From IMG/VR virus record IMGVR_UViG_3300032322_001467, positions 1-23,107 of that record: a DNA stretch of 23,107 bases; one strand, 5' to 3'. A program made the translations under genes and the position numbers. Below, piece after piece: positions 4,667-23,107 of the stretch (the first letter of the stretch is position 1; each line of letters starts with the position of its first letter). A model generated the notes under the pieces. It was not told where the DNA came from. It made no database searches and saw nothing but the letters and a program-made list of their open reading frames with translations. The DNA is from a virus.

Positions 4667-4700
4667 CAAAACTAAAACCAAAAACGAAAGACAAAAACTT

Positions 4701-5072: not shown

Positions 5073-5114
5073 TTTGCTTCCTTGTCTTCCCTTTCCACGC
5101 GAGAGGGAAGCAAA
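5073..5114 (+). other. Leader hairpin with two alternative pairings
   Basis: TTTGCTTCC (5073-5081) is perfectly complementary to GGAAGCAAA (5106-5114). An inner CTTCCCT can instead pair with the overlapping AGGGAAG. The two helices share bases and exclude each other. The A-rich leader AAACCAAAACAAAAAGAT and the ATG at 5152 follow. There is no T-run. It begins directly after the upstream stop codon. Confidence 0.45.
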
Positions 5115-5151
5115 GGGCGCAAACCCTAGCAAGAAACCAAAACAAAAAGAT

Positions 5152-5604
5152 ATGAAACTAACTCTAAAACCAGTAAACAGCGGAGCTTTCAATTTCCTTC
5201 CATCGCGAGAAGTTGAACTAAAAGAAGAAGAAGTTCTGTGCAACCACGTGATCCTTCCTTGGGAATTTAATCCGCACAAAGTCACCTTGTACGTTATCGG
5301 CCACGAATTCGGCGCATTAGGCGCTGTCTGGGCATCGCACGAGCAAGAGGCGTTAGATGAATTGATTGATTCTGGCCTGGGTAAATCCTTCCTTGTATCG
5401 GAAGAAGATCAATCAAGCGCCAGCGAAGACGAGCGCGAAGATTGGACGCACCTTGGAAATGCAAGCGAGCCATGCGACTTGACTAACGCTTGGATTCAAG
5501 AGGTGCGTCTTGAGCCGTCGCAAGATTTCAGGCTGCTATGCGCTTTTGCCGAGGCTCGTGGCGCTGGTCAAGATAACGCTCGGGATCTGGCCCCGCCGCC
5601 CTAG
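5152..5604 (+). CDS. Hypothetical phage protein, 150 residues
   Basis: Start chosen at MKLTLKPVNSG (5152), in the context AAAAAGATATGAAACTA; the longer frame from 5041 reads through a hairpin and leader. The protein has FNPHKVTLYVIGHEFGALGA, VWASHEQEALDELIDSGLG, an acidic Ser/Glu linker, DWTHLGNASEPCDLTN, and a helical C-terminus ending in a Pro run. No catalytic motif is evident. The pattern IGHEFGA...VWA.HEQEALDEL.D looks like a conserved phage early protein, but I cannot assign a function. Confidence 0.8.
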   Translation: MKLTLKPVNSGAFNFLPSREVELKEEEVLCNHVILPWEFNPHKVTLYVIGHEFGALGAVWASHEQEALDELIDSGLGKSFLVSEEDQSSASEDEREDWTHLGNASEPCDLTNAWIQEVRLEPSQDFRLLCAFAEARGAGQDNARDLAPPP

Positions 5605-5729
5605 ATGCCGACTTCAAGAGGGACGTTCCGGCGGTTGCCAGCATCCCATTGTTCTGCCTCTTTTGCCCGTGGAAAATAAAGTGAAAATAAATTGAAATAG
5701 TGCTTGCGGGAAATCAAACCGCGCGCAAA

Positions 5730-5762
5730 GGTCTTCTTGTCAGCAGGAAACCAACCAAGACC
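5730..5762 (+). other. Hairpin abutting the start codon at 5763
   Basis: GGTCTT (5730-5735) pairs with AAGACC (5757-5762), enclosing a 21-base loop and ending exactly at the ATG at 5763. If formed, it would occlude the start region, so it could modulate initiation. The preceding stretch 5605-5729 holds only a 24-codon frame directly after the upstream TAG and AT-rich sequence. I see no convincing gene there. Confidence 0.35.
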
Positions 5763-5918
5763 ATGAAAACAAAACCAATCAGCAAAAAAGAATACGCCGA
5801 ATATATCGCCGCCCGCAAAACCACCGAAGACATGCTTCACGCCAGCAAGGTTCGTGTGGAATATGTCGAAATGGAAAAGGAACTTTACCGCCGGGATCGT
5901 GCAAGGCGTGGCGTATGA
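5763..5918 (+). CDS. Small basic helical protein, 51 residues
   Basis: Starts MKTKPISKKEYAEYIAARKT, then a predicted helix with METEE-like charge alternation ending in YRRDRARRGV. It is highly charged with no hydrophobic segment, probably all helical. The frame can be extended upstream to 5700, but the ATG at 5763 sits after the leader hairpin and matches the ATGAAAAC start context of other genes. Its last codon overlaps the start of the next gene (ATGA). Not recognised. Confidence 0.6.
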   Translation: MKTKPISKKEYAEYIAARKTTEDMLHASKVRVEYVEMEKELYRRDRARRGV

Positions 5919-6097
5919 AACTAACCAGAGGCGGAAAACGCGAAGGGGCGGGGCGCAAGCCCCGCGACACTCCCCGCGAGGCAATCACCGTGCGGCTCGA
6001 ACCGCAGGACGCGGCCAAGCTGCGGGATCTGTGCGCGGTGCGGGAAGTCTCCCAAGCGGATTGGATAACCGACAAGATCAGGAGGTCACGCGCATGA
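5915..6097 (+). CDS. Small ribbon-helix-helix-like DNA-binding protein
   Basis: A 60-residue basic protein starting MKLTRGGKREGAGRKPRD. It continues into EAITVRLEPQDAAKLRDLC and VREVSQADWITDKIRR. A GGKREGAGRKP leader followed by a beta strand (ITVRLEP) and two helices fits the ribbon-helix-helix repressor fold used by small phage and plasmid regulators. DNA binding is inferred from that resemblance. It overlaps the previous stop by ATGA. Base composition is unusual: a hand count of 5941-6060 gives about 72 percent G+C, far above the flanking genes. This suggests recent acquisition. It is followed at once by a 9-codon frame and the hammerhead ribozyme. Confidence 0.7.
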   Translation: MKLTRGGKREGAGRKPRDTPREAITVRLEPQDAAKLRDLCAVREVSQADWITDKIRRSRA

Positions 6098-6123
6098 TTT
6101 CTTGGCAGAACCTCTGGAAATAA
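6094..6123 (+). CDS. Nine-codon mini-frame (MISWQNLWK) with a strong ribosome binding site
   Basis: AGGAGGT at 6080-6086, seven bases before the ATG at 6094, is the best Shine-Dalgarno sequence in the window. The frame it serves encodes only MISWQNLWK. The ATG overlaps the TGA of the previous gene, and the TAA ends exactly where the ribozyme's stem II begins. Two of nine codons are TGG. It may be a leader peptide whose translation affects ribozyme folding, or the SD may be coincidental coding sequence of the upstream gene. Confidence 0.3.
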   Translation: MISWQNLWK

Positions 6124-6183
6124 GTCGAAACGCCTTCGGGCGTCTTTTCGGGCTAGCCTCCCGAAAACTGATGAGACAGGCTA
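6124..6183 (+). ncRNA. Hammerhead ribozyme, permuted type II
   Basis: All hammerhead core elements occur in the right order. Stem II 5' strand is GTC (6124-6126), followed by GAA (6127-6129). Stem III is ACGCC-TTCG-GGCGT (6130-6143). The cleavage triplet is GTC, with C at 6144. Stem I is TTTTCGGG (6145-6152) paired with CCCGAAAA (6160-6167), loop CTAGCCT. The core CTGATGA is 6168-6174, and stem II 3' strand is GAC (6175-6177). Loop I bases TAGCCT (6154-6159) are perfectly complementary to AGGCTA (6178-6183), giving the loop-I pseudoknot expected to stabilise the active fold. Predicted self-cleavage is between 6144 and 6145. The downstream product would begin with the stem I hairpin, then the A-rich leader of the gene at 6212. 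Confidence 0.88.
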
Positions 6184-6211
6184 AAACCAAAACCAAAAAC
6201 AGAAAACGAAT

Positions 6212-6547
6212 ATGATCCTAAATCACAACGCACAAGAATTCTGTGCAATCAACAACATCGTGGGACTCGCAATAGACCGCTTGCCATCTGGCCAAGTAAT
6301 CGCATGCGAGGTTCGCAAAGATGAAGCTGGCGAGCTTCGCGTCCCCATCGCTCAAATGTCGCTCGAAGACCTTTACGCCCTCGCCGCCCGCTTGCACTTG
6401 GAAATCTTGCCTTCCAAATTCGCGAGCCGTCAAGAGATGGACAGTCACCGCGCCCACGTTCGACGCCTAGCAGAACGCTCAAACGAGGCGAGAGAAATGC
6501 GAGGCGCTCGCGAAACGCCAGCATGGGCCGTTCCCGATAAAGCCTAA
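6212..6547 (+). CDS. Hypothetical protein, 111 residues, downstream of the hammerhead
   Basis: Starts MILNHNAQEFCAINNIVGLA at 6212, in the A-rich leader context AAAACAGAAAACGAATATG. The first half looks folded, with beta strands around GLAIDRLPSGQVIACEV and ELRVPIAQM, then helix LEDLYALAARLHLEIL. The second half is a charged helix rich in Arg and Glu (HRAHVRRLAERSNEAREM), possibly a coiled coil. Its mRNA is predicted to have a 5' end made by ribozyme cleavage at 6144/6145. No family is recognised and there are no catalytic or metal motifs. Confidence 0.75.
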   Translation: MILNHNAQEFCAINNIVGLAIDRLPSGQVIACEVRKDEAGELRVPIAQMSLEDLYALAARLHLEILPSKFASRQEMDSHRAHVRRLAERSNEAREMRGARETPAWAVPDKA

Positions 6548-7055: not shown

Positions 7056-7096
7056 TTGCAAAAAACGGACGATTAAACCAAAGTTAATAACCAAAT
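7056..7096 (+). promoter_or_regulatory. AAAACGGAC/AAAGTTA regulatory element before 7097
   Basis: AAAAACGGAC (7061-7070) is followed nine bases later by AAAGTTA and AACC before the start at 7097. TTGCAA at 7056 could act as a -35 element, but no good -10 is seen. The same core recurs at 7518-7526 (followed by AAAGTTA) and at 14446-14454 (followed by AGTTA), each upstream of a start. Confidence 0.4.
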
Positions 7097-14979: not shown

Positions 14980-15627
14980 TTACTTCATCCAACAGGGATG
15001 ATCTGTCGGCCACTTTTCACGAAGCTCAGGCTCGTCCATAGCATCCTTTGGACACCAGCACTTCATGCGAAGATCGCAACTGCAAATCTGGCACGTATTC
15101 AACAGCGGATCGCTAGGCGTATGCCGACTCGTCAAGAACTGATTGATATGCCCAACAAGGCTACGAGTTGAGCAGCTAACGCAGAACTCCACAATCTTAT
15201 CCGTGTTCTTTGGGCAAGTCGCACAAATAGCCGCTCTTCGATTCGCCTCCTCTTGATCTACAAGCTCGCCAGCTAAGTACGGCTTCACGGCGGAGTTGTA
15301 GAACCGCTTCATCATCTGAAACGCTCCAATTTTAGCTTCGCTGTCAGGATCACGATCAACGCATAAATCAGGACGATGCTGGCAAAATGCCTCCTGCATG
15401 ATGAGTCCAAGATTCACTGGAATCTCGATGCCATTTCCTTCCAGGTGCTCTTGAACGGATTTCGCTAGATCACGCCATCCGTATCTGATGAATACCGTGT
15501 TTGTAGCTTCAACGTGGTAGAAGAAGCCATAAGTATCGCCAGTGATGACAGCCGTTGGAAATAGCTCACGCAGCTTCGCGTGGTTGAATTCCTTCGGGAT
15601 GGTATTTTTGCGGATGAGTTCTTGCAT
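14980..15627 (-). CDS. Cysteine-rich phage protein with C-terminal zinc-ribbon clusters
   Basis: A 215-residue protein from the ATG at 15627 (MQELIRKNTIPKEF); a GTG one codon upstream is the alternative. The N-terminal half has GDTYGFFYHVEATNTVFIRY and a helical region. The C-terminal third is full of cysteine pairs: AAICATCPKN, EFCVSCSTR, CQICSCDLRMKCWCP. This RAxICxxCP ... CxxC ... CxxCxCxLxxKxWxP layout is common in phage proteins encoded near structural genes and probably binds two zinc ions. Function unknown. Its start overlaps the stop of the giant gene upstream (TGATG), so it is translated from the same late transcript. Confidence 0.75.
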   Translation of the reverse strand: MQELIRKNTIPKEFNHAKLRELFPTAVITGDTYGFFYHVEATNTVFIRYGWRDLAKSVQEHLEGNGIEIPVNLGLIMQEAFCQHRPDLCVDRDPDSEAKIGAFQMMKRFYNSAVKPYLAGELVDQEEANRRAAICATCPKNTDKIVEFCVSCSTRSLVGHINQFLTSRHTPSDPLLNTCQICSCDLRMKCWCPKDAMDEPELREKWPTDHPCWMK

Positions 15628-18600
15628 CACGTTGCTGGTTGATAGCCCCTATAGACCTTCTTGAGCGCCCTATCGCGCACTTCGTCAGCTTTGTCCAACA
15701 GGAATGCTTTGGCGCGTTCTGTGGGCATCTGGAGCGCACGCTGGCCGTATCGCAGAAGCATCTGCTTGTAGCCTTTGCCGGTTTCAAGGCTGTAGTTGTC
15801 GGCTTCTTCCTGCGTGAGAGAGCGACGACGAGCGCCCTTGCCAACCATGCGGTGTTCGGCATTAGCTGGAGTCAGCCAGATTCCACGAGAATTGAGAGCG
15901 CCAAGAACCCTGTAAGCTGGATCAGTTGGCTTCACCATGAACTCGCGGCTTCCAGGATACACATTGCGTTGGATTTGCTGCCCAAGGATGTCGTAGTACT
16001 CCTTGCCTTCGTAGCGACGGTAAACAGGGATGTGCGAGGCTGTCTTCTCCCACAGTGTTTCGTATTTACGCAGATTTGGATCTTGCGCGTAGTCGATGTC
16101 CTTCAAGAACCGAGGAACAAAGCCGCCAGCATAGCTTGACATCACCTTGGCAAAACGCTCCATGCGCTTCTCGTTGGGGTCTTTGCTGGACAAGCTGTTG
16201 CCGAATAGCTCTTGGAACTGGGAAAGAGCAGGAATGTCAGCAGCAGCAGCAGCGCCAGACATTGCAGCACTTGCCATAATTTGAGCCACGTTTTTGTCGT
16301 TCCATTGGTCTGGCGAGAAGCGGATCAAGTCAGAAAGACTTCCGATAGCTGCGAGCGCAGATGAGATAGGCCAGTTGGCGTAATTGAACACCTTGCCATT
16401 GATGCCGATGGTGTACTCCTTCTCGCCAGCGGCCAGCTTCTGCTGCTTCTTCTCAGGTGTTAGGTTACCCCATCCGCCGTTGATGAACCAACCGCGCTTC
16501 TCGTCATCCGGCTCGTCTGCGATGGCCTTGAGGATTTGGTAGCCAGCAACGGATAGCATCACTCCAATAAGCTGATTGCGCCGAATTGAGTCGATGAATG
16601 CTTCTTTTCCACTGATGCGATTAGGATCAAATTCAGCCTCAAATGCGCGAGCGAAACCAATGCCTGGAATGAAGCTCAGACCTTGGTTGAATTTGTTGCC
16701 AGCGAAACGTGCGAAGCGAACACCGCCAAAGTTAGCTGCATTATATGCCAAGAACTGCATGAAGTAAGCGAATGCCAACTCAAGTCCAGAAAGAATCCTA
16801 TCGCCATTCTGCGCTGAGTCATTCCATCCGCGTTGAGCTTGTTTCAGGAATCTATCAGCACCTGCTTCAGCATTGGTCACAAGCGATCTGATCGCACGAT
16901 AGCCGACACCACCAAGTCCAGATGGATCAAGTGTCATGGCACCTTGTTGACCGAAGAAGTTGGCGTTCTCGGACACGTTGCCTAGCTTATCCAGTTCTGC
17001 CATCATGTCGGCCAGAGCGTAGGAATCAAGAATAGCCTTGTCGCGTGCAGACTTGGGAGGTGTTCCGCCGAAGTCTTTCTGAATAATGGCGTCCTTGTAA
17101 GGCTTCAAATCAGACTTCTTCTCCATTTCAGCAATCTTAGCTGGATCGAGTCCAATCTGGCGGAATACGATGGAAAGCGAACCTTCCTTGGTGAGTCCAC
17201 TATTGAATACGTCGAGAGCAGTCAGCAATCGGCTAACTGTCCGCATAAACAAGCCTGCGCTCTTGACGAGAATCTTGTCAGACTTCGCCATTTGTTCTGC
17301 CAGCTTGTTGCTCTTGCCGATATTGCCCCATTGCATGTTCTCGGTCACATCATTCATAGATGGATCAAGAAAAACTGGATCACCACTAACAAGGTATTGC
17401 CACGCGATACGGGCTTGGCGTCCATAGGCACTCAGCAATCGAGCGAGTGTTTTGTATGCACCAGCAAGCTCAGATGGAAGCTGCTTTGGATTGGTGAATC
17501 CAGCGATGAACACGCGAGACAATGCCGTGGAAAGCTCGAATGCACCGCTGGCAACAGCAAGACCGATTGAGACGATAGTATTTGGACCAGAGAGCACACT
17601 GGAAACCCAGAAGTCAGCGAGCATCTTTACTACTGGAATCTTGAGTTCGCCTTGCAGCACCTCAAGCAGCTTGTAGGCAGCAACTTGGCGCTTCACAGCG
17701 TTCAATCCTTCGTCTTGAAGCACCTCGATAAGCGAATTGATCTTCTCGCGCTCTGTCTCAGTGAACTCGGATTTAATACCGAATTTCTCTGCCATGCGCT
17801 TTGCCAGTTCATCGTTATCGAAGATGCCAAGATTGATGTCTTCAACGATACGCATCCGTTGCGCTTGAAGAGCTTTAGCGCCTTCTTTGCTGAGATTCTT
17901 CTTGGCCTCTTCTGCGCGAATCATGCGCTCAAGCATACCATCCAGGATACGAGTGCGATTGGATTCCCATGCTTCAGCGAACAGGTCTGCAAGACGTGCC
18001 TTTTGCTCTGGCGTTGCGTTCTTGAGTTCTTCGTTTGCAGAGATGGCGTCAAAGATGCGCTGGCGGTATTCTTCGACTGTCTTTGCGCTTTGGGAGAGAA
18101 GCTGACGCCAAGGGATAGGTGTCCTGAGGGGAATTTCCTCTCCACGGCGCATGTTGTTGATCTCGTTGATCATTCGTTGCAGGGCTTTTGGGCCTTGCGT
18201 TTTATCGAAAACAGCCATCGCAGCAAGATCGGTCTTTTCGCGTTCTGCCGCTCTAAATAGACGTTCTGCAACCTGCCTACTAACCTTGAGTGGAATAAGG
18301 CGCTGAACGAAGGCATCAAGCGCAACAGGTGATTCAACCTGCTCACGGAACGCTTTGATAATCGTATCTTTGTTCTGATTGGTATCTATGTCAGCAAATC
18401 CGCTTTGGCGTTTCAAACGCTCCTTGGCAAATATGATTCGATGAGCCTGTGCATCAGCGCGTTCTACTGCTGCTGCATTGCGTTGACGGATCTTATCCTG
18501 CCGCATTGCCTCACGGGCATCTATTTCTAGTTCTGCCGCACTCCAAAGAATGCCAGCGGTCTTTTCATCAGCGCCAAGTTCAATCGCTTTATTCACGAAT

Positions 18601-21600
18601 GAATCTTCCGTCATTTGCGATGCGCCATTGCCTTGCTTTACGCGCTCTTTGTAGAGTTCGCGCATTTCGTTGATGTTCAGCTTCTTTTCTTTGAAGATGA
18701 GAGGATCAGAATAACGCTCTGACAAATCCTTTAGGATGGCTTGAGCGGTGGCTTCAGCCTTTGTGACTTCTTCCTCGCTAGTTTCTGTTTCTTCGGTTGG
18801 CTCAATAGCTTCGCCAGCCTTCACTCGCTTATCCACCGTGTCGATGATCTCCTTGCGCTTCTTGCGCTTGGTCTTTTCGGCAGGTGTATCGGTTGGTGAC
18901 TCATCGCCAACCAGTTTAGCCATGAGAGAATCCAGTTCTGCCAATACTTTCGCCTCTGCTTTAGCCGCTTCATCATCCGACATTTGCAGGATGGCGTTTA
19001 GCTCGCTCATTTGAGCATCTGTGAATGAAGCCTTGGCATTAGAAGCTTTAATTGACTTTCTGCGAGCAAATATGGCTAACTGAGCAACTAAAAATTTAAC
19101 TCGTTCCCACATGGTTTTACGAGCGCCTTCAAATACCTGTTCACCTTCTTTGATCAAGGCCCATTCTTCGTTGTTGACGACATCCTGAGCTATCTCATCC
19201 ACCGCCTGCTGATTGGCCTTATCAGAATTCTCATACGAGTTCTGCGTGAAGCTAGTCGCATTCTCACTTCCGAAGTTGGAAATGAGGATGTTAGTTCTAG
19301 CCTCCTTCATCGCTTTCTCTGCGATTTCACGAATGAACATCCAGCTATAACGAGCTTTGTTCACAAGATAGCGTCGTTGTCCAAGGTGTTGACCTTTCTT
19401 GCTACCAACACCTTGCCAGAATGCAGACAGGCGCTCGCTAAGTTTAGATAGTTGCTTCTTTCTTCCTGGAGACTTTTCCTCGCGTGCAGCGTTGTCCACA
19501 CGTTGACGGACTTCGATAGTGAGAGCGTCTTGGGCCATCAAGTCTTGCTCAATGCCGATGCTTTCAAGGAAAGCTGGAGAGATGACTGAGTTCGCAATAT
19601 CATCAAGTGAAACGCCTTCCTTCTCAAGGTTGTTGACGTATTTGATGGCAGCGTCGCTGTATTCTTCAGCAGATTTGACCGCTCGGTCAATTGGCATGAA
19701 GTTTGTGAACTGAACACCTCCAAACGGAGCCTTAGCTTTTCCGTTGTTCGCGGCATCAACTTCCTTCCTGTAATCTTCCGTGGCTGGACTATCCACAATA
19801 GACGCCATCGCTCTTGTCTGGAATCCAGAAGGTGGCATAACGATGACAGAACCAGCGCGTTCGCCTTCGGTGGTGAAGGTGGCAAATGGAGATTCACCTT
19901 CAATCAACAGCGCCCCACTGTCTTCATACAGCCCTTGCAAAATGCGGCTGAACTCTGTTTCCGTCAGATCAGGCATCGACTGCTGCACGATGCTGAAAAG
20001 CTCGTCTAGCGGCACCGATGGGCCATTTGTCTTCGGAGCAATATCGTATGCTGCACGAATGGTAGAACGCACTTCCTTGTCGCGTTCGTCGTAGTCAGTA
20101 TTTCGAGCTACTTCAGCGCCACTGTTGAATGCAGCATCGTTGGGGGAGTCGTATTCGACTTTGGATGCCATTGGCTGTGAGGCAGATTCCAACTCGTTCA
20201 TTAGCGCGTTAACTTCGCTAATCTCGTCCTGTAAACGCTTGCCAACTTGGCCGTTTTTAGCCATTGCCAAAGCGGTTTTAAGAGCATTCGTAATATCATT
20301 CAACAATGCTTTCATTGCTTCCACAAAACGCATCCATCCAGTCTCGCTAGTGAAATCTTGGCGCTGCATTTGAAGCATCATGCGTGATAGCTCCATTGCG
20401 AACGCTGCCGCTTCTGGCGCTGTCTTGATCTTGCTGATTGCATTATTTACATCTGATGCTTGGTCATTTGGATTGTATAGATTCCAAGCGTTTGTGAAGA
20501 CGTTTGCTACCGCAGAATTGCCATTACGAAGCTCATCGCCAGCAATTTGAGCCACCTCATTAATCATTGAAGTGTAGTACTTCAACTCATACAGACCAAC
20601 GCTATCGGTGGAATTTGATGATTTCCACCGATTGTAAATGTTGAGATGTTGAGCGGCATGAATCACCTCCTCTTGCGCCATATCAAAGATATTGGCAAAA
20701 GCTATTACTGCATCTCCATTGAGCAAGTCGGCCAACCCGGAAGTGTCGAATTGGATGGTAATTGTTGGAGTAGCGCCAGAAGAGAGAAAACTAGCCGGTC
20801 TATTTTTTGGCGTTCTTTCGTTGGTGACTCGTACAGGAAGTATCGCGGTATCGAAGGAATAACGCGATTGAATAGATTGAAGTCCAAACTCTTCCAGAGC
20901 TTTCGCCCTCTGAGTTGGTGAAAGTTCATTCCAGTTCGACTCTGAAACAGCTTTTCGTATTGCCTGCGCTCTTGGAGAGTTGTCCCCAGTCGAAACACCT
21001 TCCATGCGCTGGCTACCATATCCCTCGGATGCGTAAGGACGAACGGATGTATCATAAGTTTCATATTTGGTTTTTCCACCATTCACCAGCATGTCAGCAT
21101 TAGCCTTCTCCGAGTTCTTCAAGCTATTGCGAATCAGGCGGAAAACGTCCTTGTAGTCCTTCAGCGTAGGCTCGCTGGTCTTGCCAGTGATCTTCTGCCA
21201 GATGCCACGCAGGAATTGCATGAACTCTGCCCAAATGCCATCACGCGGGATTTCAACCATTGAGTCGAAGTCGCGAGTCATCGCTTCTTCTAATAAGCTA
21301 AAATAGTTATCCTGATTCGTGCGCCAGTCTGCATACTCGCTGTAGGACTTAGCAAGCGAATCAAGCTCATCTGGAGAGTATATCCGGCGCAGGAAAGCTA
21401 AGATCTGCATCTTCTCCTTCTTCGACAAGAAGAACATGCCCTTGTGGATGTTCTCGTGAAGAATAACGCGACGAACCGCCGCTACTTCTGGTGTAGTTCC
21501 TTGGAGATTGGCTAGCTTGCGATCAAGATCAGATACGCCTACGTTGTCTGTAAATACAATCGGCTGTCCATTTTCAGACCATCCTTCAGCATTGTTGTTG

Positions 21601-23107
21601 TTACTAACAGCCACCCAAGTCTCAGGATAGCGAACGCGATTCGCAGGATCAGCAAGGAAGTCCTTGGATGTGCCAATCCAGGTGAAGAGCACATTTGGAA
21701 TCTCGCCAGAACGATTGAGAATCGCAACAGCTTGATTGGCATCGGTTGGCTTAACGGTGCCTTGAACGACATTCGTCCGCGTTTTCTGAATGAGCGAGTT
21801 GAGCGTTTTGAGGTTTAGCTCTTCGCGCTTCTTTTTTGCGGCTTCTAGCTTTTTATCCTCTTTTCTATTCAAATCATCGCGAAGATCTACATTTGAATTT
21901 TTAGCTAGCTGCTTAGATGATTCTATATTCGCTGCATTAAGTGGAGCGAACACCGACCTTCCCTTGGCTGTTTCTGGAAGAATGTAAATAAGACCTCCCA
22001 ATGGATAATTATTGAAGGCCCAATCCATGACCTTATTATCAAGGTTCATGCACCCCCATGAAATTCGATTATCAAGAGGTGTTGCTGTGGCAATTCTCTG
22101 AGGTCTTTTTTCGGAAGGATCGTGTAGGGCTAAGCGATGAATCGCCACTTCTACTAATTCTCCAGTCTCGGAGTCAACCATATCTGTCCCCATTACAGAA
22201 AATACATTACCGTATGTAGCGTCTGTTTCTGGAGCTATCTCAAATCTGCCAGATGGTGTAATTCTTCCCGCATCTGTATTTCCAATAAAATCACCGACAT
22301 TTTTACCAACCAAAACTGGAGACTTCTTTAGCAATACTCCTTTTTCGTCAAAGAAATACATGGTTGCTCCAATCTTATCTGTGACGATAAATGGATAGCC
22401 CTCAGAGTCTGCTGTATCTAAAACCCACTGAGCAGTTTTGGCAGCATCTGACGAAATCTTCTTTCCTCGCGTATCAATTTTGGGACGTTTATTTAGCTCA
22501 ACATTGCTTAATCCAAGTGGTATTTTTTGCTCTGGAATACCAATGCTCATATCTGGAAGACTGCCAAATTGAGGTCTGGCAGGCTTGCTATTAAGTATGC
22601 TTGATACTGGTATCTTGAAAGCCCTGAACTGATCACTCGTTGCTAGATTAACATCCGATGTGCTATTTGCCATTGATAGACCAATGCTAGCAGCGAGTAA
22701 AAGCCTCGCCTTGTTAGCAACAGTCTTGAAAAACTTGATGAGTTTTTTAGATGTCTCATTGGCTCCAGCCATCCAGTCAGCCATTCGCTGCTTGAATAAA
22801 GCCTTGCTATCAGCCCATGTTTTCTTTCCAAGGATGATGGCTGCTTCCCTTTTCTCCACTGGAGATAGAGATGAATCGACCATTTCATCCGTAATTGGAT
22901 TTAGGTCGGTGCTTTCATCGACCACTTCCTGTATAACTACATCTGCAATGTCCGCTTTTTCGTTTGACTCTATGGCAGTTATAGCAGATTCTTGCTCAAC
23001 AGCAGGGATCGACCCCTCTGCTGGTTGTTGAACAACACTGGCTACCGCCGCTTCCTTAGCCAAGGGAGCGGCGGTTTCTGTTGGTGTGGCTACCGTTGTG
23101 GTTTGGG
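15627..23107 (-). CDS. Giant polyvalent phage protein (L,D-transpeptidase, metallopeptidase and LPD-type domains), 5' end outside window
   Basis: At least 2,492 residues. The frame stays open through the right edge, so the TTG at 23063 is not its true start. Numbered from 23063: a hydrophobic segment (RLLLAASIGLSMA, near 120), then an L,D-transpeptidase (YkuD-like) domain with RITPSGRFEI and catalytic-type ISWGCMNL, Cys338. A zincin motif HENIH (536-540, bases 21444-21458) has a following EEAM. A second peptidase-like EEVIHAAQH lies at 798-806. Long charged coiled coils span roughly 1100-1800. A C-terminal region opens with SSVLSGPNTIVS and has hydrophobic helices, like a large-polyvalent-protein associated domain (LPD38-type, from memory). 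Such proteins are thought to be packaged in the virion and ejected with the DNA, so wall and protein cleavage at entry is the likely role. Confidence 0.85.
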   Translation of the reverse strand, partial: QTTTVATPTETAAPLAKEAAVASVVQQPAEGSIPAVEQESAITAIESNEKADIADVVIQEVVDESTDLNPITDEMVDSSLSPVEKREAAIILGKKTWADSKALFKQRMADWMAGANETSKKLIKFFKTVANKARLLLAASIGLSMANSTSDVNLATSDQFRAFKIPVSSILNSKPARPQFGSLPDMSIGIPEQKIPLGLSNVELNKRPKIDTRGKKISSDAAKTAQWVLDTADSEGYPFIVTDKIGATMYFFDEKGVLLKKSPVLVGKNVGDFIGNTDAGRITPSGRFEIAPETDATYGNVFSVMGTDMVDSETGELVEVAIHRLALHDPSEKRPQRIATATPLDNRISWGCMNLDNKVMDWAFNNYPLGGLIYILPETAKGRSVFAPLNAANIESSKQLAKNSNVDLRDDLNRKEDKKLEAAKKKREELNLKTLNSLIQKTRTNVVQGTVKPTDANQAVAILNRSGEIPNVLFTWIGTSKDFLADPANRVRYPETWVAVSNNNNAEGWSENGQPIVFTDNVGVSDLDRKLANLQGTTPEVAAVRRVILHENIHKGMFFLSKKEKMQILAFLRRIYSPDELDSLAKSYSEYADWRTNQDNYFSLLEEAMTRDFDSMVEIPRDGIWAEFMQFLRGIWQKITGKTSEPTLKDYKDVFRLIRNSLKNSEKANADMLVNGGKTKYETYDTSVRPYASEGYGSQRMEGVSTGDNSPRAQAIRKAVSESNWNELSPTQRAKALEEFGLQSIQSRYSFDTAILPVRVTNERTPKNRPASFLSSGATPTITIQFDTSGLADLLNGDAVIAFANIFDMAQEEVIHAAQHLNIYNRWKSSNSTDSVGLYELKYYTSMINEVAQIAGDELRNGNSAVANVFTNAWNLYNPNDQASDVNNAISKIKTAPEAAAFAMELSRMMLQMQRQDFTSETGWMRFVEAMKALLNDITNALKTALAMAKNGQVGKRLQDEISEVNALMNELESASQPMASKVEYDSPNDAAFNSGAEVARNTDYDERDKEVRSTIRAAYDIAPKTNGPSVPLDELFSIVQQSMPDLTETEFSRILQGLYEDSGALLIEGESPFATFTTEGERAGSVIVMPPSGFQTRAMASIVDSPATEDYRKEVDAANNGKAKAPFGGVQFTNFMPIDRAVKSAEEYSDAAIKYVNNLEKEGVSLDDIANSVISPAFLESIGIEQDLMAQDALTIEVRQRVDNAAREEKSPGRKKQLSKLSERLSAFWQGVGSKKGQHLGQRRYLVNKARYSWMFIREIAEKAMKEARTNILISNFGSENATSFTQNSYENSDKANQQAVDEIAQDVVNNEEWALIKEGEQVFEGARKTMWERVKFLVAQLAIFARRKSIKASNAKASFTDAQMSELNAILQMSDDEAAKAEAKVLAELDSLMAKLVGDESPTDTPAEKTKRKKRKEIIDTVDKRVKAGEAIEPTEETETSEEEVTKAEATAQAILKDLSERYSDPLIFKEKKLNINEMRELYKERVKQGNGASQMTEDSFVNKAIELGADEKTAGILWSAAELEIDAREAMRQDKIRQRNAAAVERADAQAHRIIFAKERLKRQSGFADIDTNQNKDTIIKAFREQVESPVALDAFVQRLIPLKVSRQVAERLFRAAEREKTDLAAMAVFDKTQGPKALQRMINEINNMRRGEEIPLRTPIPWRQLLSQSAKTVEEYRQRIFDAISANEELKNATPEQKARLADLFAEAWESNRTRILDGMLERMIRAEEAKKNLSKEGAKALQAQRMRIVEDINLGIFDNDELAKRMAEKFGIKSEFTETEREKINSLIEVLQDEGLNAVKRQVAAYKLLEVLQGELKIPVVKMLADFWVSSVLSGPNTIVSIGLAVASGAFELSTALSRVFIAGFTNPKQLPSELAGAYKTLARLLSAYGRQARIAWQYLVSGDPVFLDPSMNDVTENMQWGNIGKSNKLAEQMAKSDKILVKSAGLFMRTVSRLLTALDVFNSGLTKEGSLSIVFRQIGLDPAKIAEMEKKSDLKPYKDAIIQKDFGGTPPKSARDKAILDSYALADMMAELDKLGNVSENANFFGQQGAMTLDPSGLGGVGYRAIRSLVTNAEAGADRFLKQAQRGWNDSAQNGDRILSGLELAFAYFMQFLAYNAANFGGVRFARFAGNKFNQGLSFIPGIGFARAFEAEFDPNRISGKEAFIDSIRRNQLIGVMLSVAGYQILKAIADEPDDEKRGWFINGGWGNLTPEKKQQKLAAGEKEYTIGINGKVFNYANWPISSALAAIGSLSDLIRFSPDQWNDKNVAQIMASAAMSGAAAAADIPALSQFQELFGNSLSSKDPNEKRMERFAKVMSSYAGGFVPRFLKDIDYAQDPNLRKYETLWEKTASHIPVYRRYEGKEYYDILGQQIQRNVYPGSREFMVKPTDPAYRVLGALNSRGIWLTPANAEHRMVGKGARRRSLTQEEADNYSLETGKGYKQMLLRYGQRALQMPTERAKAFLLDKADEVRDRALKKVYRGYQPAT

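Follow-up and report, generated by a model that had tools for sequence, protein, structure and literature searches.

A type II hammerhead ribozyme, predicted to cut mRNA, between two genes of an IMG/VR phage record

The window analysed here is a stretch of 23,107 nucleotides, positions 1 to 23,107 of the IMG/VR virus record IMGVR_UViG_3300032322_001467 from an uncultivated phage, and the element we describe lies on its + strand upstream of a gene for a protein of 111 aa. Positions 6124-6177 read as a complete permuted (type II) hammerhead with the order II-III-I-II, and the tail that follows can pair with one of its loops. Where an initial annotation had spoken of an early leader, we observe an element that lies among a series of small genes, between two of them. 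The features of the locus are the following.

5578-6111, + strand: segment of 534 bp with AAC-repeat flanks, absent from the relatives L122-L124; it holds the ribbon-helix-helix-like ORF and a 51-aa ORF
5915-6097, + strand: upstream ORF coding for 60 aa, with a weak ribbon-helix-helix likeness (Pfam RHH_1 at 14.8 bits, under the cut-off of 20.5)
6121-6123, + strand: TAA adjoining the ribozyme; at this place an intact gene of 145/146 aa ends in L122-L124
6124-6126, + strand: 5' strand of stem II, GTC, pairing with 6175-6177 (sequence, Rfam alignment)
6127-6129, + strand: conserved GAA (G12 A13 A14), invariant among orthologues
6130-6143, + strand: stem III of 5 bp, ACGCC (6130-6134) with GGCGT (6139-6143), loop TTCG (sequence, orthologues)
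6130/6143, + strand: closing pair of stem III, A6130-U6143 (A15.1-U16.1; sequence, orthologues)
6142-6144, + strand: GTC cleavage triplet, with a cut predicted at C6144/U6145 from its place in the hammerhead consensus
6145-6152, + strand: 5' strand of stem I, TTTTCGGG, partner 6160-6167 (sequence, folding); predicted 5'-OH end of the downstream mRNA
6153-6159, + strand: loop I, 7 nt, CTAGCCT, of which 6154-6159 form the 5' half of the pseudoknot (sequence, orthologues)
6160-6167, + strand: 3' strand of stem I, CCCGAAAA (sequence, folding)
6168-6174, + strand: catalytic core CTGATGA (C3-A9), varying among relatives at position 7 only (T/C/A)
6175-6177, + strand: 3' strand of stem II, GAC (sequence, orthologues)
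6178-6183, + strand: 3' tail AGGCTA, the 3' half of the pseudoknot, partner of loop I (sequence, orthologues)
6184-6211, + strand: A-rich leader, AAACCAAAACCAAAAACAGAAAACGAAT, with no clear Shine-Dalgarno motif
6212-6547, + strand: downstream gene, 111 aa, with no Pfam or PHROG match and with 20 IMG/VR relatives

Stems I and III are closed by loops and stem II is open, and stem I forms an uninterrupted helix of 8 bp. Together with CUGANGA, GAA and the A15.1-U16.1 pair, a UH cleavage site can be read at 6143-6144. The pseudoknot consists of 6 bp, in which the last six bases of loop I (TAGCCT) are perfectly complementary to AGGCTA. The initial annotation had described a complete type II hammerhead at 6124-6183 as well as this complementarity, and both descriptions hold, the first on our reading of the sequence, the Rfam family RF02276 and 11 orthologues, the second on rereading and on its invariance in the orthologues. 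Its predicted cut between 6144 and 6145 likewise agrees with the hammerhead consensus, and Rfam and the orthologues lend it support.

RF02276 (Hammerhead_II) matches 6123-6185 on the + strand end to end with 38.7 bits, a small margin of 1.7 bits over the curated cut-off of 37. The E-value is 9e-5 over 4227 Rfam families, and 2.1e-8 for RF02276 alone on the record. This is the covariance search which had been proposed in the initial annotation, and its E-value over all families, together with the 11 relatives that conserve the element, bears out the view that a chance occurrence is unlikely. No match to RF02276 was found in 14 control genomes, and the window contains no second hammerhead or other ribozyme class at E <= 5. 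The plain folding energy of the element is unremarkable (z = -0.61), and folding without tertiary contacts does not yield the 3-bp stem II, so the case rests on motif and conservation and not on stability. In some relatives the flanking sequences compete with stem I or stem III in the predicted folding.

As relatives we considered the 20 IMG/VR records that have a homologue of the downstream 111-aa gene (77-99% identity). Eleven of them (L122-L124 and L131-L138) carry a hammerhead upstream of this gene, 79-88 nt before its start codon; the ribozyme begins at most about 3 nt away from the stop codon of the preceding gene. There is at most one hammerhead in each relative's record, and in IMG/VR the subtype of the window was seen in these carrier records only. 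An Rfam search of the 11 carriers detected 10 at E <= 0.01, six over the cut-off and four under it; the one missed is L131, in which core position 7 is an A. The alignment used for counting pairs holds ten sequences, eight of them distinct. All 22 pairs of the three stems and the pseudoknot can form in each of these eight (176/176 pair cells), and pairing falls to 31-50% when the partners are slid by 1-3 columns as a control. Two of the five stem III pairs change on both sides, between C-G and G-C, and the outer stem II pair changes on one side from G-C to G-U in two of the eight distinct sequences. Non-compensatory changes in the relatives, which the initial annotation had named as evidence against a ribozyme, were looked for and none was found. 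None of the ten aligned sequences shows a change in stem I or in the pseudoknot, which are thus conserved yet have no covariation support of their own.

The same invariance could be expected if the element were a decayed, inactive relic whose sequence is kept only through the close kinship of the phages, and the ribozyme is moreover absent from nine of the 20 relatives, which indicates that it is dispensable. But the downstream genes of the carriers have diverged, with 90-99% protein identity to the query and about 81-90% DNA identity, and the changes in stem III are paired. The core occurs as CTGATGA, CTGACGA and CTGAAGA, so that position 7 is the sole core position to vary. Position 7 of CUGANGA is also the one position of the hammerhead core which tolerates change. 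We therefore regard a relic as improbable.

The genes upstream of the ribozyme are exchanged among the carriers. In eight of the 11 (L131-L138), homology to the window sets in precisely where the ribozyme does, at 6122-6123. Three kinds of upstream gene are found in these eight and a fourth in L122-L124, all joined to the same unit of ribozyme and 111-aa gene. In L122-L124 the stop codon of the 145-aa gene directly adjoins the ribozyme. The window has this fourth kind too, starting at 5152, where it is interrupted by the 534-bp segment, and its last codons and TAA remain beside the ribozyme. The segment has apparently been inserted in the gene that is intact in L122-L124, and the TAA at 6121-6123 now ends a remnant frame of 9 codons. 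Parts of the segment are found in other viral contigs (L142-L150). The upstream gene had been called a ribbon-helix-helix gene; a weak likeness to this fold stands, with the RHH_1 score staying under its cut-off. Similarly, the element does lie between two genes, whose messages it had been proposed to separate, but the ribbon-helix-helix-like partner is particular to the window, carried there on the 534-bp segment, and the nearest relatives have the 145-aa gene in its place. Among ten loci with relatives of the ribbon-helix-helix-like ORF, none has a ribozyme above the Rfam cut-offs.

The 111-aa gene has no relative among named phages or GTDB genomes, and the stretch of ribozyme and gene has no DNA match to named phages. 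Matches of RecT and of the primase-helicase stay under 60% identity and come from a wide range of hosts. At 4681-4700, 5131-5151, 6184-6211 and 7075-7096, the ATG of a gene is preceded by an A-rich leader that has ACCAAA-like motifs but lacks a clear Shine-Dalgarno sequence, which may reflect the host's way of starting translation. On the - strand, one open frame of about 2,490 aa occupies 15627-23105 and continues past the end of the window; no confident Pfam match was found in the 1,457-aa part scanned.

In the nine relatives without the ribozyme (L125-L130 and L139-L141), homology to the window resumes at 6184-6219, and a long hairpin and an apparent H-type pseudoknot, a TGCCC loop with GGGCA, precede the 111-aa gene. 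The long leader hairpin has z of about -3.7 and shows compensatory changes. A hairpin of this type with a conserved GT/CA internal loop is also seen in the window itself at 5073-5124, and in relatives, for example at L125:2880-2985 and L140:2886-2985. With a strict pattern the hairpin was found in 15 IMG/VR contigs only; it has no Rfam family, and for the alternative leader nothing in Rfam comes near a gathering score. An RNase III site and a leader RNA not described before are both candidates for its identity. Three or four changes between the two leader types are needed to fit them to a tree of the 111-aa gene, as where L123 with the ribozyme stands beside L130 with the pseudoknot, though most forks of this tree are weakly supported and a single origin is still compatible with it. 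It thus appears that the leader has been exchanged independently of the gene behind it. The relatives without a ribozyme may obtain a constant and protected 5' end from the structured leader that they have instead. One could go further and propose that the pseudoknotted leader without hammerhead is itself self-cleaving or otherwise processed, with unrelated cutting RNAs swapped at one gene boundary. We think this is a long shot; if true, the swapped RNAs would give the 111-aa gene a private mRNA.

Such plain hairpin and pseudoknot leaders at the same place also raise the question whether there is a ribozyme in the window at all, or whether its hairpins are a transcription terminator or a simple 5' hairpin that stabilises the mRNA. 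In favour of a terminator, CTTTT follows the GC-rich hairpin of stem III. Our scan shows no terminator-like site on the + strand here, for which reason a terminator was rejected, and neither a terminator nor a hairpin needs the unpaired catalytic core and the GAA, which are conserved. This explanation is in our view very improbable compared with a hammerhead.

Natural type II hammerheads, including examples from prophages, were described by Perreault et al. in 2011 (PMC3088659). In most of them loop I can pair over at least 4 bp with the nucleotides directly after stem II; breaking this pseudoknot lowers the rate by orders of magnitude, compensation restores the rate, and the same pseudoknotted architecture was demonstrated to cleave fast (PMC3088659). 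As far as can be read from sequence, the window element fits this description in every respect tested. The kind is not new, since that work already reported and tested prophage hammerheads of type II that have the very same pseudoknot. The pseudoknot had been counted as a second independent constraint, but it belongs to the type II consensus as published (PMC3088659) and loses that independence. With the members of RF02276 and of PMC3088659 the element shares the open stem II, the core, the GUC cut site, the short stem II, the pseudoknot of loop I with the bases after stem II, and the setting at prophage or phage gene boundaries. It differs from the Rfam consensus in its 3-bp stem II and its uninterrupted 8-bp stem I, and the gene neighbours are unrelated.

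Prophage hammerheads were found clustered between genes, leading to the proposal that they cut phage transcripts into operon- or gene-length mRNAs (PMC3088659). In the Agrobacterium prophages the clusters around ardA likewise lie between genes of a phage operon, with the same proposed cutting into gene-length mRNAs (PMC3088659), whereas the window record has a single ribozyme and a downstream gene with no assigned function. HHphage of the haloviruses HF1/HF2 is also located close upstream of the start codon of a phage gene, but it is of a variant type and precedes a helicase gene by 13 nt (PMC3088659), while the window element has a canonical core and a distance of 34 nt from stem II to the ATG.

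For a wider view we surveyed IMG/VR with two strict patterns, each of which matches at least 120 loci (samples L002-L121 and L173-L292). In the first sample 138 of the 149 pattern matches listed have both stems, and in 86 of these 138 listed hammerheads loop I and the tail match over 4 nt or more, compared with about 21 expected with swapped tails. Among the matches listed, the pseudoknot geometry of the window belongs to a minority class, and some contigs have up to seven ribozymes. The distance from the stop of the upstream ORF on the same strand to the start of the listed hammerhead is -2 to +8 nt in 91 of 115 cases in the first sample and 77 of 120 in the second, against 4 and 17 in the opposite-strand control. 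Uniform placement in the gap gives, again for the matches listed, means of 55 of 106 and 41 of 91, where 86 and 63 are observed. The next ATG follows stem II after a median of 26-27 nt in the listed matches of both samples. Part of the stop codon proximity can be explained by the compactness of phage genomes, where the gap is taken up by an element of 55 nt. It is useful context that, among the matches listed, most type II hammerheads of IMG/VR begin at the stop codon of the preceding gene. Stop codons go unmentioned in the main text of PMC3088659, and a literature search on hammerheads, phages and stop codons, from which subscription papers were mostly absent, gave no title or abstract on point.

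Taken together, we assign a probability of about 0.9 to the reading that 6124-6183 is a natural hammerhead of type II, lying between two genes of the phage and on their coding strand, and that it would cut their mRNA. On transcription of the polycistronic phage mRNA, the hairpins of stems III and I and the 3-bp stem II would fold, and the 6-bp pseudoknot between loop I and the 3' tail would hold stems I and II side by side. The RNA would then cut itself co-transcriptionally after C6144. The upstream message would keep its stop codon and some 21 nt more, with the small stem III hairpin and a 2',3'-cyclic phosphate at its end. U6145 would be the first nucleotide of the downstream message and bear a 5'-OH; it would be paired in a blunt hairpin of 8 bp, where the pseudoknot can persist, followed by the A-rich leader and the 111-aa gene.

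A 5'-OH within a helix is a poor entry point for the 5'-end-dependent decay of bacterial mRNA. A constant and protected 5' end would therefore be the most likely benefit. We give about even odds to such insulation and stability, that is a fixed, structured and decay-resistant 5' end for the downstream gene whichever gene lies upstream, and the benefit would arise in a genome region with frequent exchange of small genes. By analogy, synthetic insulators of the RiboJ type also have a self-cutting leader that gives the same 5' end whatever is upstream, as would the window element if it cleaves as predicted, although they were engineered from another hammerhead. Hammerheads in viroids and retrozymes, on the other hand, make circular RNAs, and cleavage in the phage could in principle serve circularisation or ligation instead of mRNA processing. 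Since there is only one hammerhead in the window and at most one in each relative, there is no pair to release a unit, and Perreault et al. sought spliced or circular products and detected none (PMC3088659). We give this use hardly any credence, and mRNA processing remains our preferred role.

With this ribozyme, a class that phages were already known to carry gains one clean, conserved family. Since related phages either have it or lack it before the same gene, they offer natural alleles for comparison. Such a comparison makes the role of phage hammerheads testable, be it the segmentation of mRNA, the protection of 5' ends or the insulation of exchanged genes.
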